Assembly: GCF_014195535.1 (NCBI RefSeq)
Contig: NZ_JACIBY010000001.1
Coordinates: 1,073,811-1,137,810 of the forward strand
DNA: 64,000 nucleotides
Source: Runella defluvii
GTDB taxonomy: Bacteria > Bacteroidota > Bacteroidia > Cytophagales > Spirosomataceae
Reading direction: 5' to 3'
Program-made: the position numbers and the translations under genes
The notes under the pieces: generated by a model
What the model saw: the letters and a program-made list of their open reading frames with translations, nothing else
The model's database searches: none
What the model was told of the DNA's origin: nothing
Part shown: in pieces, positions 11,468 through 18,069 of the stretch
Layout of the letters: every line of letters starts with the position of its first letter
How positions within the stretch are numbered: position 1 is the stretch's first letter

Positions 11468-12316
11468 CTACAACTTGTCGATTTCGTCTTTTGACAAGCC
11501 TGTATATTTCATTATTTTGTCAATAGGCTCTTTGTCTGATTTCATTAATCTAGCCATTTCAATTTTTCCTTCAATTTTTCCTTCAACTTTTCCTTCGCCA
11601 AAAGCGGTGTCAATAACACCTTTTAAGTCTCGATACGTTTTCAAACTGTTTTCATAATTGTCCAATTCAGCTTGGCCAAACTTGGCAAGTTCTGCTTTCT
11701 CAAAGGCTTGGATAAATACTTCGTCTTTAAAAATTGTTGGAATGGTTTGAAAATCCTCTAAATGCTTGATGAAATACAACCATTTGTCCAAACGGGTGTT
11801 TAACTCATCTTCCGTTTGTTTGAAGTTGGGCATTTCAAGGTAGATATAGGTTAGCTTATTATAAAAAATTTTACCGTTTTGGTTTTTCAATTTGATGGTA
11901 TGAACTACTCCACTTCTTTCGGGCTCATTTTCGTAGTCGTCAAACGTAAAATCAAGAATACCAATACAATAAACAGCTTTCAAGTTGTAATTCCAGTCAC
12001 CTTTTTCGGCTTGTTCCCGAATAGGGAAAGTCGAATAATAGATAGTCCTTTCCTTAAAATAATTTTGTTTTGCTTTTTGTAGTTCTACAATGAATTTTTC
12101 GCCCTTTTCGTTTTCACAATAGATGTCATAAATAGCTTTACGGTCAGCGTCGGTTTGTCCTAAATGTTCTGTATTTTTAAAGTTCAGGTCAACGATTTTG
12201 CTGGTTTGAGGCAAAAGAGCGTTCAAAAAGTCAATCAATAATGGTTTACTTGCCTCTTCTCCGAAGATTTTCTTAAATCCAAAGTCAGTAAAAGGGTTTA
12301 CATATTTTGCTTTCAT
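11468..12316 (-). CDS. Rpn/PD-(D/E)XK-nuclease-family transposase-like protein
   Basis: 282 residues from MKAKYVNPFTDFGFKKIFG, the standard N-terminus of the recombination-promoting nuclease (Rpn)/transposase_31-like family. Nuclease residues are visible as D64 in AIYDIYC and E78-x-Q80 in FIVELQ. The C-terminus has GKxEGKIEGKIE repeats from a 12-bp tandem (aatttttccttc, 11565-11600) and a final helix LMKSDKEPIDKIMKYTGLSKDEID. Family members cut DNA and stimulate RecA-independent recombination. A -7 box TATCTTTG (12339-12346) lies 22 nt upstream, supporting this start. Enclosed by R2 and R3. Confidence 0.85.
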   Translation of the reverse strand: MKAKYVNPFTDFGFKKIFGEEASKPLLIDFLNALLPQTSKIVDLNFKNTEHLGQTDADRKAIYDIYCENEKGEKFIVELQKAKQNYFKERTIYYSTFPIREQAEKGDWNYNLKAVYCIGILDFTFDDYENEPERSGVVHTIKLKNQNGKIFYNKLTYIYLEMPNFKQTEDELNTRLDKWLYFIKHLEDFQTIPTIFKDEVFIQAFEKAELAKFGQAELDNYENSLKTYRDLKGVIDTAFGEGKVEGKIEGKIEMARLMKSDKEPIDKIMKYTGLSKDEIDKL

Positions 12317-12357
12317 CGCTTTATCTATAATTAGTAAGCAAAGATAACCAACTTTCT

Positions 12358-12500
12358 GATAGCGCGAGTGTTCCACTCGTGCTTACTATCCCAAGGCTTC
12401 GAGCCCAGGCTGACAGTCGAAAGGCTTATAAAGGCCACGTGTAGGATGCACGCGGTATCGGAGGTTGGGGTCACTCACTGCCAAGCTGGCCGCTTCTTGC
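12358..12500. repeat. Interspersed repeat R3
   Basis: Starts gatagcgcgagtgttccact, as R1 and R2, diverges in the middle (ggcttcgagcccaggctgac), then rejoins R2 at gcacgcggtatcggaggttg and actcactgccaagctggccg before ending near 12495. Part of a 531-bp gene-free stretch (12317-12847) that otherwise holds the two inverted repeats listed next and AT-rich sequence without a gene. Confidence 0.9.
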
Positions 12501-12790: not shown

Positions 12791-12824
12791 CATCCCGTCC
12801 CAACCAGCAAGTTGGGGCGGGATG
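12791..12824. terminator. Hairpin downstream of the VOC gene
   Basis: Arms catcccgtcccaac (12791-12804) and gttggggcgggatg (12811-12824), one mismatch, six-base loop. It stands 24 bp past the stop of the minus-strand VOC gene. No T-run on the minus strand, so termination is plausible but not certain. Confidence 0.45.
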
Positions 12825-12847
12825 TTCCTTTATCTCCGAACACTCAG

Positions 12848-13303
12848 CTACCCTTTCCCCATGTTCTGCCTAATGACAAAGGAGTTGTTATCAGGGTCGC
12901 AGAAGAAAAAGAAAAGGTCAACGTAGCCCTCGTCGGAGGTGTTGGAAATGATGTATTTGTCATCGCCTTCGCCACCGCCCATTGGCATCACTACCACCCC
13001 TTGTTGGAGCAAATCTTGCAAGGCCGCCTTTATATCGTCCACGATAAAACTGGGCACGGTGCCGTTGGCGGGCATGGATGGATAAGGCGCGTCAATGTCT
13101 TTGTACAGCCCAATGGTGAAAGTCCCGCCCTGTGCGCAGGGCGCATTCATTTCGAGGTAGGAGTTCGTGCCATAGGTGCCTCCGTCGCTGATGGTATAGC
13201 GTTCATCCACGGTAAAGCCCAGCACATTTTCGTAAAATGCCTGTGAGCGCAGCACGTCGCTGACCGATAGTTTGGTGACTAATTGTTGTAAATGAAAGGT
13301 CAT
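12848..13303 (-). CDS. VOC-family (glyoxalase/dioxygenase-like) protein
   Basis: 151 residues, starting MTFHLQQLVTKLSVSDVLRSQAFYENVLGF, the usual first beta-alpha-beta unit of the vicinal-oxygen-chelate fold; the second unit ends with VDLFFFFCDPDNNSFVI. Members are metal-dependent lyases, isomerases, dioxygenases or binding proteins. Third gene of an operon: its ATG overlaps the stop of the ferritin-like gene by 4 bp (ATGA), so translational coupling is likely and a role in the same pathway as the VioB-like pair is inferred. Confidence 0.8.
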   Translation of the reverse strand: MTFHLQQLVTKLSVSDVLRSQAFYENVLGFTVDERYTISDGGTYGTNSYLEMNAPCAQGGTFTIGLYKDIDAPYPSMPANGTVPSFIVDDIKAALQDLLQQGVVVMPMGGGEGDDKYIISNTSDEGYVDLFFFFCDPDNNSFVIRQNMGKG

Positions 13304-14349
13304 AATTGGGTAGTGGGTTGCACAAATTCATACGATGGCCCAATGGTGTAGCCATCCTGCCCTGGGAAAGGCATTTCGGCGAGTTTTTGGCAAGCAAGCC
13401 TCAAATCAAACATCAGTCCGATGGTGTTATTGAGGTTGTCGGGATGGCCGTTGAAAGTTTGGTGCAGCCCAAAAAGTAGGTTACTGTACGTTTGATTAAA
13501 CGAGTCCAACAACCGACGTTCTTCGGAGCCTTCGGGCAACATCTCCGCTTTGGTGTTGGGGTACAACGGAAGCACGTTAGAGGGGTCGAACGGGATAACG
13601 GGACCCGTAAACGAATAGCCGTTGGGAGCATTGGGGTCTCTGACGAGTTCTCTGCCCTTGTACAATTCCTCAAACTTATAATAGTGGGCGAGTTCGTCGT
13701 CGGTGCCCAACGGCGACACTTCGCTTCCTTCGCCTTGTTCTACGATGACGTTGATGGCATTGATGGCGTCCGTTTTGGTCAGGATGGGGTAGAGGAGGTC
13801 GGAAGAGAAAAAGCTGGAAGTTACCTGTTTGGCGGGATTGCCAGGCAATTCGTCGGGGGCGAGTTCGGCTATTTTGGCCTGCAATGCCCGATAAAAATCG
13901 CCGATGGTTTTGTACGTAGCCTCGGTTGCTGCCAGCGCCATGGTTTTAAACTCGATGGGGTTTTCGGGCTCTTCAATTTCCATAAAAACGTTGTGAACCA
14001 CGTCGAGGGAGTATTTTTCGATGCCCACAATGAGCGAACCGCCAATGCCCATGGGTAAATGCGTGGGGTAATTGGGGACAAAATCGGGGCGTGAGATGGC
14101 GGGGCATCCGCCCACGGCATTGAGGATGTTGGCCGCAATGGTCATGTGCAACATCTCTTCAATCACAATCGAGTGGATGACCTTTCGGATGTCAGACTCG
14201 GTATTGGCCTTGAACGAAAACAACGCGGTTAGGTACGGAGGAATGGTGGAATGTTCCAACTCAATGGCATTTTGCAGCATCGGAAAAAGCTCCGCTAAGC
14301 TTTTGGCATTTTGAACCGCACTTACAAATTTTGGACTTATCTTGAGCAT
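13300..14349 (-). CDS. Ferritin-like protein matching the C-terminal domain of VioB
   Basis: 349 residues. Helix-bundle carboxylates are in place: E30/E32-H33 in AIELEHSTIPPYL and E64-E65-x2-H68 in IEEMLHM, followed by NILNAVGGCP. Further on, VIVEQGEG and the helix DELAHYYKFEEL (about 218-229) correspond to the DQGEG...HYEHSHFQRL region I recall from Chromobacterium VioB. This is the ferritin-like domain of iminophenyl-pyruvate dimer synthases (VioB/RebD/StaD), here a separate protein. It begins 15 nt after the VioB-N-like gene and overlaps the VOC gene by 4 bp. No signal peptide. Substrate unknown. Confidence 0.8.
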   Translation of the reverse strand: MLKISPKFVSAVQNAKSLAELFPMLQNAIELEHSTIPPYLTALFSFKANTESDIRKVIHSIVIEEMLHMTIAANILNAVGGCPAISRPDFVPNYPTHLPMGIGGSLIVGIEKYSLDVVHNVFMEIEEPENPIEFKTMALAATEATYKTIGDFYRALQAKIAELAPDELPGNPAKQVTSSFFSSDLLYPILTKTDAINAINVIVEQGEGSEVSPLGTDDELAHYYKFEELYKGRELVRDPNAPNGYSFTGPVIPFDPSNVLPLYPNTKAEMLPEGSEERRLLDSFNQTYSNLLFGLHQTFNGHPDNLNNTIGLMFDLRLACQKLAEMPFPGQDGYTIGPSYEFVQPTTQL

Positions 14350-14364
14350 GATGATTATTCAGGT

Positions 14365-16296
14365 TTAGAATTCAAACAAATTGGTTAACGCTGGGAAATT
14401 AATCAAAGAGCCATTTTTGGCTTTGGTGGCCTCGACCAACTTTTGTTGCTGCTCAGAAGGCGCTGCTGTGTCGAGCTCGGCGTTGGCGTCAACGCTTTTC
14501 AGTTTTATTCCTTTGGCGGCAGCGGTGGCGGGGTCATCAACGATGGGGTTGTCCAACCACTTCAAAATCGTGAGTCGCTTGGTTTCGGATAAGTCCCGCG
14601 TGGCAGGCATGTAGATGGGGTCGTGGATGTCGCGGGTAAAGGCAAATTTCAAGATGTCCTTTTTGGCAATCATGGCTTGTGGATCAGCAAAATTGATGAA
14701 GTACTTGCTCATGATGGGGTATAGGTTGGCAAACTGCGTCATCATGTCCGAAATGTCGCTCCACGTAGGGGTTTCGGGGATGGGGAAATCGTCCCGTAAA
14801 TGGATTGAAATAGACATGGGCGCGGCTCCAGGAATGGCGCTGTCGGGTTGCTGATTGGCCAAGGTGTAGTCCAATAGGTAGATTTGCCCGTCGATATACA
14901 CCCGTGGCGAATGGATGCTGTTGCCCGTGATTTCGATTTGGGCCATGCCTTGGGCGTTGGTTTGGCATGAAGGCGCAAAACTCAACCCGTCCTGAGGTTT
15001 GTTGTTGCCGTAAGTAATAGAAATCGGGGGCGAATTTTTGTCTTTGGGCGTATCGGGCGTGGGCGGCTCCATCGTAATCGTTAATTCGGTTTGCGGTAGC
15101 GGCTGCCCGTACTGATACGCGTAGAGGTTGACCGTCACTTTTTGGTTGGTGTCGATGCGCTGCACAAAATTGTCGGCGCGGCACACGATGCCGTCAATGG
15201 CCTCGCGGGCAATCAGCAGGTATTGGGTAGAACTGCTGCCCGCTGCTACGAGAACCAACTGGTTGTTTTTCAGGTCATTCACTACGTCTGCCGACAGCAG
15301 ATTGAAATCGACAATGCCGCAGGTGCTATTGAGCCAAGTGGAACCTTGTTGGTACGGGACTTTGCCAATGATTTCAAGCTGACTGCTGTCGATGAGTACG
15401 TTTCTGATGGCGGGCGGGTTGGTAAGTGGTTGCTTGCTGACCGCCAAGTAGAAATCATTGGTCGTATTGATGGTTCCGATGGAATCGGCAATGGGAAACG
15501 AACCGCCCAAGTCAATCGACAAGCGGGCGTTGGCAGCATCGAATATAAAATTAGAACCGCCAAAGACTTGGCCTCGTTGATAAACCCCGTACAATCTCCG
15601 CGCGGGGGCAAACAAATCAGGCTCATTTTCAAACCACGGGCCGATGCAGCCCAGAATTTTTCCGAGAGAAAAGCGTCCGTCGGCGTGGGCGTAGTAGTAG
15701 CCAAAGCCGTTGAGGTTGATGCTGATTTTGTTTTGTTGGGTTTTGGCCTTCAACGCCATCAAAATGGGTGATTTTTCGGCCAATTTCCCGTACTTGACAT
15801 CTTCCAGCACCGACGTCCACGAAGCACCCATGGGTTGACCGTTGGGCTGTCCGCCGTTGGTTTGGCGGCGTTGCAAATCTCGAAAACCCGTGGGTTTGAT
15901 TCTTCCTTCGAGCAACAACTCATTGTGGGCCGAAAGGATTCGGAAAGTCACGCCCCAAAGCTCCGACACCATTTGTTGGTCGGGGTCTAAGTCCACCATT
16001 TTGCCCGAGTTTCGCCCTTCGGCACCCGTCACTAGCTGTCCAATGATGCCATCCAAGGCAGGGTCGGTAATGGTCGTTCCGTTTTCGTTGGTGGCTTGCT
16101 GAATCGTGCAATTTTGAAAGCCAAAGGTAGCACCGCCTTCGGGGTTCCACCAGCCGTTGGTCGCTCCTTGCCCAGGAATCTGAAAGCTCGACTCAAACGT
16201 AGCGTTGTTGTAGTGCTGCGTGTCGTTGTTGACGGTGGAAACATCCGAGGAAAAGTCTCCAGAGAATACAATTCTAGGGAAATGTAAATAAGACAT
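14365..16296 (-). CDS. VioB N-terminal-like protein (partner of the ferritin-like protein)
   Basis: 643 residues. It begins MSYLHFPRIVFSGDF, like the MSILDFPRIHFRG start of VioB, and near the C-terminus has the LYPIMSKYFINFADP segment and YMPATRDLSETKRLTILKWL (about 562-581), which correspond to the VYPFMSD and YMPSTRELSAPKARLFLKYL stretch directly before the ferritin domain in VioB. So it looks like the N-terminal two-thirds of VioB, ending where the next gene starts. In VioB/RebD this part belongs to the heme-containing enzyme that couples two indole-imine molecules. No amino-acid oxidase (VioA/RebO) is nearby, so the product is unknown. First gene of the operon. Confidence 0.65.
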   Translation of the reverse strand: MSYLHFPRIVFSGDFSSDVSTVNNDTQHYNNATFESSFQIPGQGATNGWWNPEGGATFGFQNCTIQQATNENGTTITDPALDGIIGQLVTGAEGRNSGKMVDLDPDQQMVSELWGVTFRILSAHNELLLEGRIKPTGFRDLQRRQTNGGQPNGQPMGASWTSVLEDVKYGKLAEKSPILMALKAKTQQNKISINLNGFGYYYAHADGRFSLGKILGCIGPWFENEPDLFAPARRLYGVYQRGQVFGGSNFIFDAANARLSIDLGGSFPIADSIGTINTTNDFYLAVSKQPLTNPPAIRNVLIDSSQLEIIGKVPYQQGSTWLNSTCGIVDFNLLSADVVNDLKNNQLVLVAAGSSSTQYLLIAREAIDGIVCRADNFVQRIDTNQKVTVNLYAYQYGQPLPQTELTITMEPPTPDTPKDKNSPPISITYGNNKPQDGLSFAPSCQTNAQGMAQIEITGNSIHSPRVYIDGQIYLLDYTLANQQPDSAIPGAAPMSISIHLRDDFPIPETPTWSDISDMMTQFANLYPIMSKYFINFADPQAMIAKKDILKFAFTRDIHDPIYMPATRDLSETKRLTILKWLDNPIVDDPATAAAKGIKLKSVDANAELDTAAPSEQQQKLVEATKAKNGSLINFPALTNLFEF

Positions 16297-16337: not shown

Positions 16338-16491
16338 GGAGTCCATAGTCGATAGACCATAAGTTTTAGTCCACGGTTGATAGACCATAGTCCACGGTTT
16401 ATTGACTGTCAACTGTGGACTATGCACTATGGATTTTAGTCGATAGACCATAAACCACGGACTATCGACCATAGACTATCGACTATGGACT
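16338..16491. repeat. Degenerate palindromic repeats (tccatagtcgatagaccata type)
   Basis: About 150 bp of short direct and inverted copies of agtccatagtcgatagac and accatagtccacggt; many arms are mutually complementary, so the whole block can fold. The rest of the 16297-16743 gap has two small hairpins (gcccgtaagggc and aggcgtatgtaagcct, 16565-16605) and no gene. Confidence 0.8.
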
Positions 16492-16743
16492 ATTAAGGAC
16501 TGGCTAAAAAGTTTGTTTGGGTTCTTTTTCATAAAACGTTGTTGAAATAAATTAGGGGAAATGCCCGTAAGGGCGGGGAATGTGCACAGGCGTATGTAAG
16601 CCTAAGCGAGTAGTACGAGTTTTTTCTAACGTTGTTGTGTTGAGTTTTTTTACAGTGCTAATATAGAAAAGCTTTTTGAATAAAAAAACATATAACTACA
16701 AAGAATTTGCCGTCGAGGTGGGAACGGGGATGGCTATTTCTTT

Positions 16744-17892
16744 CTACGAAGATACAGATGTTTTCTCGTCCGCTATTTTCGGTATTCTTATGTTTTTTGG
16801 ACTTATAATAATGTAATTTGTTTTCTTTCCACTGTCTTCTGCTTTCAACATTTCTTTTGCGACCAAATCTTGCAAATCACGTAAAGCTGTGTCTGAGGAG
16901 CATTTGGTAAGTTTGGCGTAAGTGGATGTTCGTAAAAATCCCACTTCTTTGCCGTAATTGTCATACAGATAATTGATTACAAGTCGTTGTCTGTCGTTAA
17001 TATTTGTTGACTTGTGTTTGTCCCAAAAGTGTGCTTTGTCCAAAATGATTTCCAAATTTTGCTCACTTGCCATTAACGCCCTTTCAAAACAGCCGAGAAA
17101 CCATTCTAAATATAGTGTGATGTCTGATGTTCCTTTTTGTGCTTTTTCAATAATGTTGTTATAGTGTTTATGTTCTTTGAAAATTTGGTTTGATAAGCTG
17201 TAAAAACGAATTTTACTATTATCGCTTTTTGCTAACCACATATCTAAAATGGCCCTCGCTATCCGTCCGTTGCCGTCATCAAAAGGGTGAATGGTGACAA
17301 ACCAAAAGTGAGCAATGATAGATTTCAGAACCAAATCCAACCTCTTTTCACTATTCAACCAATTTAAAAATTGTTCCATTTCGTGTGGAACTCTGTCGGC
17401 TGATGGTGCTTCAAAATGTATTTTTTCTCTGCCAAAAATGCCCGAAACAACCTTCATACCCCCTGAACGATATTTGGCAACATCAATTTGCTGGTAACCG
17501 CTAAAACCTGTTTGAAAAAGTGAGTGATGCCAACCTAAAAGGCGTATTTCTGTGAGTGGTTTGTCGAAATTTTGGGTAGCATCCAAAATAACATCAACAA
17601 TCCCTTCAATGTTTCGGGGTGTCTGTACAAAATCAGCATTTTCAATGCCTAATTTTCGGGCAATAGACGAGCGAACAAGTTCAGGATTTATAAATTCACC
17701 TTCAATTCTTGATGTATCTACAACCTCTAAAATAAGCGATTCTAAAGTGGCACGTTCTATAAAATCGAATCCTAAACTTTCCATACGACCCAATAAACGT
17801 CCTTGTAAATGCCTTACAGAGGCCAAGACAGGCGATAACTTGTCGTTATCCCAAACAAAGTTTGTCCAATTTTCTCTTTCGTGTATGTACAT
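16744..17892 (-). CDS. Fic-domain protein with N-terminal inhibitory motif
   Basis: 382 residues from MYIHERENWTNFVW (a longer frame to 17940 is less likely). The Fic core HPFDDGNGRIAR (202-213) has all catalytic residues: His, acidic Asp-x-Gly-N-G-R. The inhibitory motif [S/T]xxxE[G/N] is seen as TSRIEG (60-65), so this is a class II self-inhibited Fic enzyme; the flap segment and a C-terminal winged helix (LRTSTYAKLTKCSSDTALRDLQDL) follow. Family members AMPylate proteins such as gyrase/topoisomerase IV. No separate antitoxin gene is adjacent. Located in an accessory region between repeat blocks. Confidence 0.9.
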   Translation of the reverse strand: MYIHERENWTNFVWDNDKLSPVLASVRHLQGRLLGRMESLGFDFIERATLESLILEVVDTSRIEGEFINPELVRSSIARKLGIENADFVQTPRNIEGIVDVILDATQNFDKPLTEIRLLGWHHSLFQTGFSGYQQIDVAKYRSGGMKVVSGIFGREKIHFEAPSADRVPHEMEQFLNWLNSEKRLDLVLKSIIAHFWFVTIHPFDDGNGRIARAILDMWLAKSDNSKIRFYSLSNQIFKEHKHYNNIIEKAQKGTSDITLYLEWFLGCFERALMASEQNLEIILDKAHFWDKHKSTNINDRQRLVINYLYDNYGKEVGFLRTSTYAKLTKCSSDTALRDLQDLVAKEMLKAEDSGKKTNYIIISPKNIRIPKIADEKTSVSS

Positions 17893-18069
17893 AATTACCG
17901 CCGCAAAATATGCGGTGAAAATAAGGATTTTACACCGCAAAACAATTTTTTGCTTCTAAAATGTTGAATTAGCACTTCACTTTCATAGTAAAATTGAGCA
18001 TGACAAAAAAGTACTCTGATGAGCTACAAGAAAATACGCTCATCCATCGAATCATTGGATAAGTGCTTG

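Follow-up and report, generated by a model that had tools for sequence, protein, structure and literature searches.

A two-gene branch of the VioB family in Runella defluvii and other bacteria, with a putative di-iron site and partial linkage to ebo genes

Is the enzyme VioB divided between two genes in Runella defluvii, or do these genes encode a different enzyme of the same descent? The question is raised by a stretch of 64,000 nucleotides (nt) of this genome (contig NZ_JACIBY010000001.1, positions 1,073,811 to 1,137,810; the whole stretch is called the window below). Three genes of the window form one tight operon on the minus strand; they encode a large protein, here called N, a ferritin-like protein, F, and a VOC-fold protein (Table 1). 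The spacing between N and F is 15 nt, and the stop codon of F overlaps the start codon of VOC by 4 nt (ATGA on the minus strand). An earlier reading of the sequence alone (the original prediction) had proposed that N and F are a split VioB and that VOC is their partner. We found that the N-F pair is a distinct, maintained and widespread two-subunit branch of the VioB family.

Single-sequence comparison gives weak but collinear support for the relationship to VioB. Residues 517-583 of N matched positions 514-581 of the VioB model TIGR04492 (E-value 0.0042), and residues 50-251 of F matched positions 662-853 (E-value 0.0069); with scores of 14.9 and 14.2 bits against a cut-off of 1250 bits, neither protein falls within the equivalog. 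The decisive case for homology of both halves to VioB, in the same order, is made at the level of sequence by family alignments (72 N rows, 66 F rows and 12 true VioB). In profile-profile comparison N aligned with VioB residues 1-593 (probability 98.9, E-value 1.6e-17) and F with residues 602-940 (probability 98.5, E-value 1.7e-15); the control comparisons (N with F; N and F each with six Ebo families, VOC and reversed VioB) reached no more than 0.6. The predicted likeness of the 643-residue protein to the N-terminal part of VioB was thus recovered, and the 349-residue protein begins where the ferritin-like domain of VioB was expected. The summed length, 643+349 = 992 amino acids (aa), also agrees with the expectation of about one VioB (1003-1008 aa in the 12 proteins), with VioB from about residue 941 onwards (about 65 C-terminal residues) having no counterpart in the alignment.

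The 12 VioB sequences that we fetched all score above the TIGR04492 cut-off; VioB was present in 14 of the 195 genomes searched. A length filter passed 72 of the 74 unfused N sequences, leaving out those of loci L036 (cut by a contig edge) and L096 (loci and genomes carry L and G numbers), and 66 of the 74 unfused F sequences, leaving out those of L044, L046, L049, L059, L072, L079, L092 and L096. In most of the dropped F rows a mechanically assigned frame starts too early, and the frame of L079 takes in VOC.

There are 41 positions of N that are conserved in at least 90% of the 72 N sequences and identical in all 12 VioB. Residues M563, P564, T566, R567, L569, S570 and K573, of the YMPxTRxLSxxK block, are conserved in at least 69 of the 72 N sequences and identical in the 12 VioB. 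This block and the motifs ELEH, EEMLH and QGEG were all present where they had been predicted. F itself matched the Pfam family PF12902, Ferritin-like, with 224.4 bits (E-value 2.1e-66), passing the gathering score of 22.3 bits.

Six residues of F, namely E32, E65, H68, E126, E207 and H222, are invariant in all 86 rows compared (66 F, eight fused proteins and 12 VioB). We take these four glutamates and two histidines to be putative ferritin-type di-iron ligands, judging from what is typical of the fold and from the match to PDB entry 3hl1, which a PDB sequence search with F retrieved with an E-value of 3e-15. AlphaFold2 modelled N alone with a mean predicted local distance difference test (pLDDT) of 84.7 and a predicted template modelling score (pTM) of 0.86; a natural N-F fusion, L053, was modelled with pLDDT 90.3 and pTM 0.89, and its ferritin-like half is close to 3hl1 (template modelling score, TM, of 0.70-0.72 by target length). 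In residue blocks 21-30, 31-40 and 41-50 the pLDDT was 62, 66 and 53 for N alone and 88, 86 and 75 in the fusion model, the two models being of different proteins with different alignments. These values hint that the conserved STVNND..H segment of N may be ordered by F.

Searches for a solved structure resembling N were negative. By sequence, N gave no significant relative in the PDB and true VioB none below an E-value of 0.25; with these two and with an N-like and a fused protein as queries, no convincing solved relative of the N half was retrieved. Foldseek returned 57 PDB matches to the N model at an E-value of at most 0.001, but TM by query length was at most 0.15 in the best 50 of the 57, i.e. 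there was no overall match. The structure of VioB is also described as missing in passages of a 2021 review.

To follow the pair across genomes we scanned contigs with the N alignment, confirmed 92 places and kept 80 of them; the scan relied on two peptide patterns of the family and misses relatives that lack them. F stands beside N in all 80 loci. The survey of split and fused forms that had been proposed along with the original prediction gave two genes in 72 loci and one protein in eight. In every one of the 72 unfused loci (L096 is counted among them despite interrupted frames) the order is N, F on the same strand, with stop codons 1025-1534 nt apart. The 80 loci come from nine phyla: Bacteroidota (44), Pseudomonadota (18), Acidobacteriota (7), Myxococcota (4), Actinomycetota (3), and Planctomycetota, Chlorobiota, Cyanobacteriota and Verrucomicrobiota with one locus each. 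Of 150 genomes of the family to which the window strain belongs, seven encode N. The pair also occurs in eight plasmid records, where the genes are annotated as 'hypothetical protein' and 'ferritin-like protein'. Literature searches, which did not extend to the original EDB papers, brought up no description of the split pair.

In a tree of N sequences (72 split and eight fused rows, including the window and L116, with L036 and L096 left out, and five of the 12 VioB; RebD and StaD are outside this tree) all 80 N-F rows fall on one side of a branch marked 100 with a star, and the five VioB together with four other N-like proteins fall on the other side. Because split and fused rows share a branch away from VioB and the cut-off is far missed, sequence evidence places the pair in a clade apart from VioB, and we do not regard it as VioB cut in two. 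What stood of the original prediction is a homologous, collinear pair divided at the expected place; the identification with VioB did not. The fused state needs two changes on the tree and is still compatible with a single origin. We also considered whether the split is ancestral, as had been suggested, or derived; the tree, being unrooted and long-branched, does not separate the two. N, F and VOC appear to be maintained under purifying selection, since the ratio of nonsynonymous to synonymous substitution rates (dN/dS) is only 0.01-0.07 in comparisons of the window with the closest relative found (G075) and with R. limosa (G095); N is 99% identical to the G075 copy and 96% identical to the R. 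limosa copy.

Some N-like proteins lie outside this arrangement. Stand-alone proteins similar to the N part of VioB were seen in two genomes of the window's genus (L017:8189-10255, 688 aa; L018:8418-10556, 712 aa). A Symploca genome has, besides a fused N-F copy, a ferritin-like gene followed by an N-like gene of 762 aa (L083:15189-18483), the reverse of the window order.

The neighbours of the pair in part of the family bear on its possible role. An ebo gene occurs within 10 kb in 20 of the 80 loci, of which 19 have at least four ebo genes and one an EboB fragment, while a chance model with one ebo operon per genome would give about 0.35-0.6 linked loci. As flanks are shorter than 10 kb at contig ends, counts of neighbours are lower bounds and counts of loci lacking a neighbour are upper bounds. 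The linked loci belong to Bacteroidota (12), Pseudomonadota (6), Acidobacteriota (1, the EboB fragment on a short contig) and Cyanobacteriota (1); mapping the linkage onto the N tree takes 10 changes, and gene order varies between groups. In a genome of the window's order (G321) N-F is followed by eboA-F. We examined the neighbours in five of the eight plasmid records: those from Mycetohabitans and Aureibacter have ebo genes next to N-F, with EboE named, and in the Gloeothece plasmid the neighbours are TatD and 3-dehydroquinate synthase by product name. Passages of earlier papers describe ebo as a system for export of scytonemin precursors and as a part of the EDB cluster (PMC6282210), the EDB cluster as converting tryptophan to indoles that repel nematodes (PMC9655573), and an EboC as farnesylating quinoline carboxylates (PMC9235831). 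In the ebo papers covered by a term search, neither 'VioB' nor 'ferritin' turns up.

A flavin-oxidase or LodA-like gene lies within about 4 kb in six of the 80 loci. Flavin oxidases of one homologous group are found near N-F in five: those of L022, L039 and L048 match Pfam Amino_oxidase, and those of L090 and L095 lack a Pfam match and were joined to the group by tblastn. LodA-like proteins are found in three loci (L048, L069 and L095), homologues of FMP-type peroxidase in three (L022, L039 and L095) and indolepyruvate-decarboxylase-like proteins in two. In Flavobacterium salmonis (L022) one run of genes includes DAO, a VioA-like oxidase, an FMP-type peroxidase homologue, N, F, VOC and eboA-F, and in the Mycetohabitans record a LodA/GoxA-type oxidase and its flavoprotein partner are upstream of N.

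On either side of the operon the G075 genome runs colinear with the window; after VOC it has three more genes (L011, 3183-7428), the order being N-F-VOC-DAO-flavin oxidase-FMP peroxidase. The DAO is N-methyltryptophan-oxidase-like (167 bits against a cut-off of 257), the second flavin oxidase has no family match, and the FMP-type heme peroxidase scores 600 bits against a cut-off of 300. Among the 150 genomes of the family this operon copy is the only FMP peroxidase above the cut-off; at an E-value of at most 0.001 the peroxidase is found in five genomes and N in seven, with two shared, a weak co-occurrence (p 0.018). The origin of the label 'FMP-type' was not found in the literature searched.

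The VOC gene adjoins F or is fused to it in 16 of the 80 loci, all of them in Bacteroidota (L079 has an F-VOC fusion); in four further loci VOC follows EboF or is fused to its end. A protein with ABM and VOC domains is encoded upstream of N in six Pseudomonadota loci (Pfam was run on two of these). The partnership envisaged by the original prediction is therefore real. A role as a metal-dependent enzyme is disfavoured: no histidine or glutamate is invariant among 22 aligned VOC domains (21 distinct), and we rejected a glyoxalase-like metal enzyme as unsupported by conservation. In this fold, such a pattern would presumably speak for a role in binding or protection. As a separate observation, two EboF proteins apparently carry a fused C-terminal VOC domain (L060:18009-19898, 629 aa; L071:18057-19931, 624 aa).

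With confidence a little above even, we favour, by analogy, the view that N-F is a VioB-like iron oxidase, built of two subunits, that acts on imines (oxidised amino acids) and whose product Ebo exports in many hosts. Together, as its subunits, N and F would make up a single oxidative enzyme of VioB architecture (chromopyrrolic-acid-synthase type). F would be the helical, ferritin-like subunit with a di-iron site; N would be a multi-domain, beta-rich subunit whose helical C-terminal part packs against F and probably gives the substrate site its shape. Because of the analogy with VioA/VioB and RebO/RebD, we suppose that an amino-acid oxidase (flavin-dependent and VioA-like or DAO-like, or of the LodA/GoxA type) supplies an alpha-imino or alpha-keto acid, which N-F would oxidatively couple or rearrange. 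The product would be passed to Ebo proteins for export in many hosts, and VOC most likely binds the product or an intermediate. In the window strain the oxidase would have to be encoded elsewhere, or the substrate would arise otherwise. One could speculate further that N-F couples amino-acid imines, that the products are a main Ebo cargo outside cyanobacteria and that the same six-residue iron site is part of the catalytic machinery of VioB; we offer this wider proposal only tentatively.

Several observations weigh against the imine-oxidase reading. The absence of an oxidase noted in the original prediction holds for the window, where tblastn gave no significant match to flavin-oxidase, LodA, LodB, GMC, decarboxylase or FMP-peroxidase queries, but not for relatives such as G075, with its two flavin oxidases and FMP-type heme peroxidase, or the six oxidase-linked loci. 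Matches to the VioA profile in the window genome are weak and partial (the best, E-value 2.4e-5, covers profile positions 1-54), and eight of 14 control genomes give matches of the same kind. The queries used for flavin oxidases and LodA-like proteins found none in 74 of the 80 loci, and 60 have no ebo gene in the available flanks (both upper bounds). The window genome has a complete ebo operon on another contig, unlinked to N-F, and co-occurrence of ebo at the genome level, which we tried as evidence, is uninformative, EboE being present in 135 of the 150 family genomes. In two Azospirillum plasmids neither ebo nor such oxidases are annotated near the pair, except that one has a GMC oxidoreductase. 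The branch to VioB is long, which leaves room for a changed reaction. Passages of the 2021 review describe VioB as a heme b enzyme, and a heme ligand common to N and VioB was sought and none was identified. Distant N-like proteins can also work without F, because the genome encoding the 712-aa protein of L018 (G031) has no PF12902 match at all. Conversely, N was found in only two of 15 PF12902-positive genomes in a phylum sample of 395 genomes, a count made with an N profile of five rows, which may overlook divergent N. Regular occurrence of the ferritin-like gene without N, named beforehand as evidence against the original prediction, is thus partly seen: F stands beside N throughout the subfamily (80 of 80), and PF12902 proteins outside it often lack N.

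The latter proteins suggest an alternative in which F alone is catalytic, as a PF12902 di-iron oxygenase or a peroxide-handling oxidase that partners various flavoprotein oxidases, and N is a binding scaffold, with no coupling of two units. PF12902 genes with no adjacent N stand beside GMC oxidoreductases in L193, L194, L197 and Rhizobium plasmids; in L195 the neighbours are an amine oxidase and an indolepyruvate-decarboxylase-like protein, in L106 the domain is fused to a flavin oxidase-like domain, and the lack of an overall PDB match to the N model would fit a scaffold. We consider this alternative unlikely, though worth keeping in view, given that N is as constant as F in the 80 loci, is fused to it in eight and shares 41 positions with all 12 VioB.

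Clearly less probable is a true, though split, VioB or RebD that makes a bisindole (chromopyrrolic acid or imine dimer) from tryptophan. Homology over nearly the whole length would agree with it, as would the oxidases beside some copies for which VioA is the best NCBIfam match (L022, E-value 5e-20; L048, 2.4e-17; L039, 2.2e-13; all far below the cut-off). Against it stand the position of the clade outside VioB in a tree that does not include RebD or StaD, the scores of about 15 bits where 1250 are required, and the missing counterpart to VioB from about residue 941 on; vioC, vioD and vioE also gave no match among the neighbours scanned, in a scan that was not aimed at these genes.

The comparison with G075 raises the question of a relic. 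The window has no trace of the three extra genes, and a PDDEXK_2 transposase-family gene adjoins the point where they would be; R. limosa also has no such module at the locus. We rejected the G075 arrangement as proof of oxidase loss in the window, gain being equally possible. That the operon is a relic, its oxidase module lost and N-F-VOC left with no substrate, is very improbable in view of the low dN/dS of all three genes and of R. limosa, which keeps the operon, with gain in G075 and loss elsewhere indistinguishable.

Table 1. Features of the N-F-VOC operon and its surroundings (window coordinates)
Feature	Position	Strand	Remarks
N	14365..16296	-	643 aa; homologous to VioB residues 1-593; no Pfam family
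F	13300..14349	-	349 aa; PF12902 ferritin-like; homologous to VioB residues 602-940
VOC	12848..13303	-	151 aa; VOC-fold protein, last of the three operon genes
N block YMPATRDLSETK, residues 562-573	14578..14613	-	YMPxTRxLSxxK block common to VioB
N block STVNND..H, residues 20-28	16213..16239	-	lower model confidence in N alone than in N-F fusion
Codon of F E32	14254..14256	-	putative iron ligand
Codon of F E65	14155..14157	-	putative iron ligand
Codon of F H68	14146..14148	-	putative iron ligand
Codon of F E126	13972..13974	-	putative iron ligand
Codon of F E207 (QGEG)	13729..13731	-	putative iron ligand
Codon of F H222	13684..13686	-	putative iron ligand
Insertion point of the three extra G075 operon genes	12812..12832	.	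from comparison with G075
PDDEXK_2 (PF12784) transposase-family gene	11468..12376	-	adjoins operon end; neighbour, outside the enzyme

Related DNA is found at the place of the PDDEXK_2 gene in R. limosa. Direct and inverted repeats cluster upstream of N (window 16340-16493), with units such as AGTCCATAGTCGATAGACCATA; a short similar stretch is present in G075. Further on, the window encodes a Fic/DOC-family protein with DUF4172 (16744-17940).

We also saw PF12902 domains in other surroundings. A single open frame joins the domain to a flavin oxidase of HpnE/desaturase-like type (L106 / L196:9577-12819). PF12902 genes with no adjacent N are grouped with genes for a small protein and a GMC oxidoreductase (L193:8560-12150, where the small protein matches PF12318; L194:7144-12666, which also has an FMP-type peroxidase homologue). 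In L195:12653-16520 and L198:9056-12958 PF12902 is near enzymes of the MbnB/TglH/ChrH type (PF05114), which belong to ribosomally synthesized and post-translationally modified peptides, and DUF2063, with a cysteine-containing protein of 199 aa in between in L198.

Besides VioB, RebD and StaD are what we take to be the closest known systems. N-F shares with VioB (TIGR04492) the collinear homology, the same six candidate ligands and the same YMPxTRxLSxxK block. It differs in that VioB is a single chain of about 1000 residues, while N-F is divided between two genes in the window and 72 of the 80 loci and is fused in eight, in that H33 of F is leucine in VioB, and in falling more than 1200 bits below the equivalog cut-off, in a separate clade. 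A linked tryptophan oxidase would be expected for VioB; the window has none, VioA-like oxidases are found in L022, L039 and L048, and G075 has other flavin oxidases.

Caulobacter CC_0557 (PDB 3hl1), a PF12902 protein, has the fold of F and agrees pairwise at E32, E65, H68, E126 and E207, with H222 outside the alignment. It has no N half, and many PF12902 proteins adjoin GMC or amine oxidases instead of N. Fungal genes for LodA/GoxA quinoprotein amino-acid oxidases that adjoin PF12902 genes, described in passages of PMC4417212, offer a parallel of an amino-acid oxidase beside a ferritin-like gene; a term search of that text finds neither VioB nor ebo. The ebo cluster (eboA-F, for scytonemin-precursor export in Nostoc, and within EDB in P. 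fluorescens NZI7) is connected to N-F by the linkage in 20 of 80 loci, and passages in print tie Ebo or EDB to indole-derived metabolites; the difference is that in the window genome it is complete yet unlinked.

Whole biosynthetic clusters may escape notice where, as in the plasmid records, the annotations read 'hypothetical protein' and 'ferritin-like protein'. With the halves kept apart in stable genes, and with natural fusions and numerous sequences, the family allows the N domain and the putative iron site to be approached separately. N-F joins three threads, namely an enzyme family whose logic is known, the ebo operon and the question of its cargo outside cyanobacteria, and the amino-acid oxidases.

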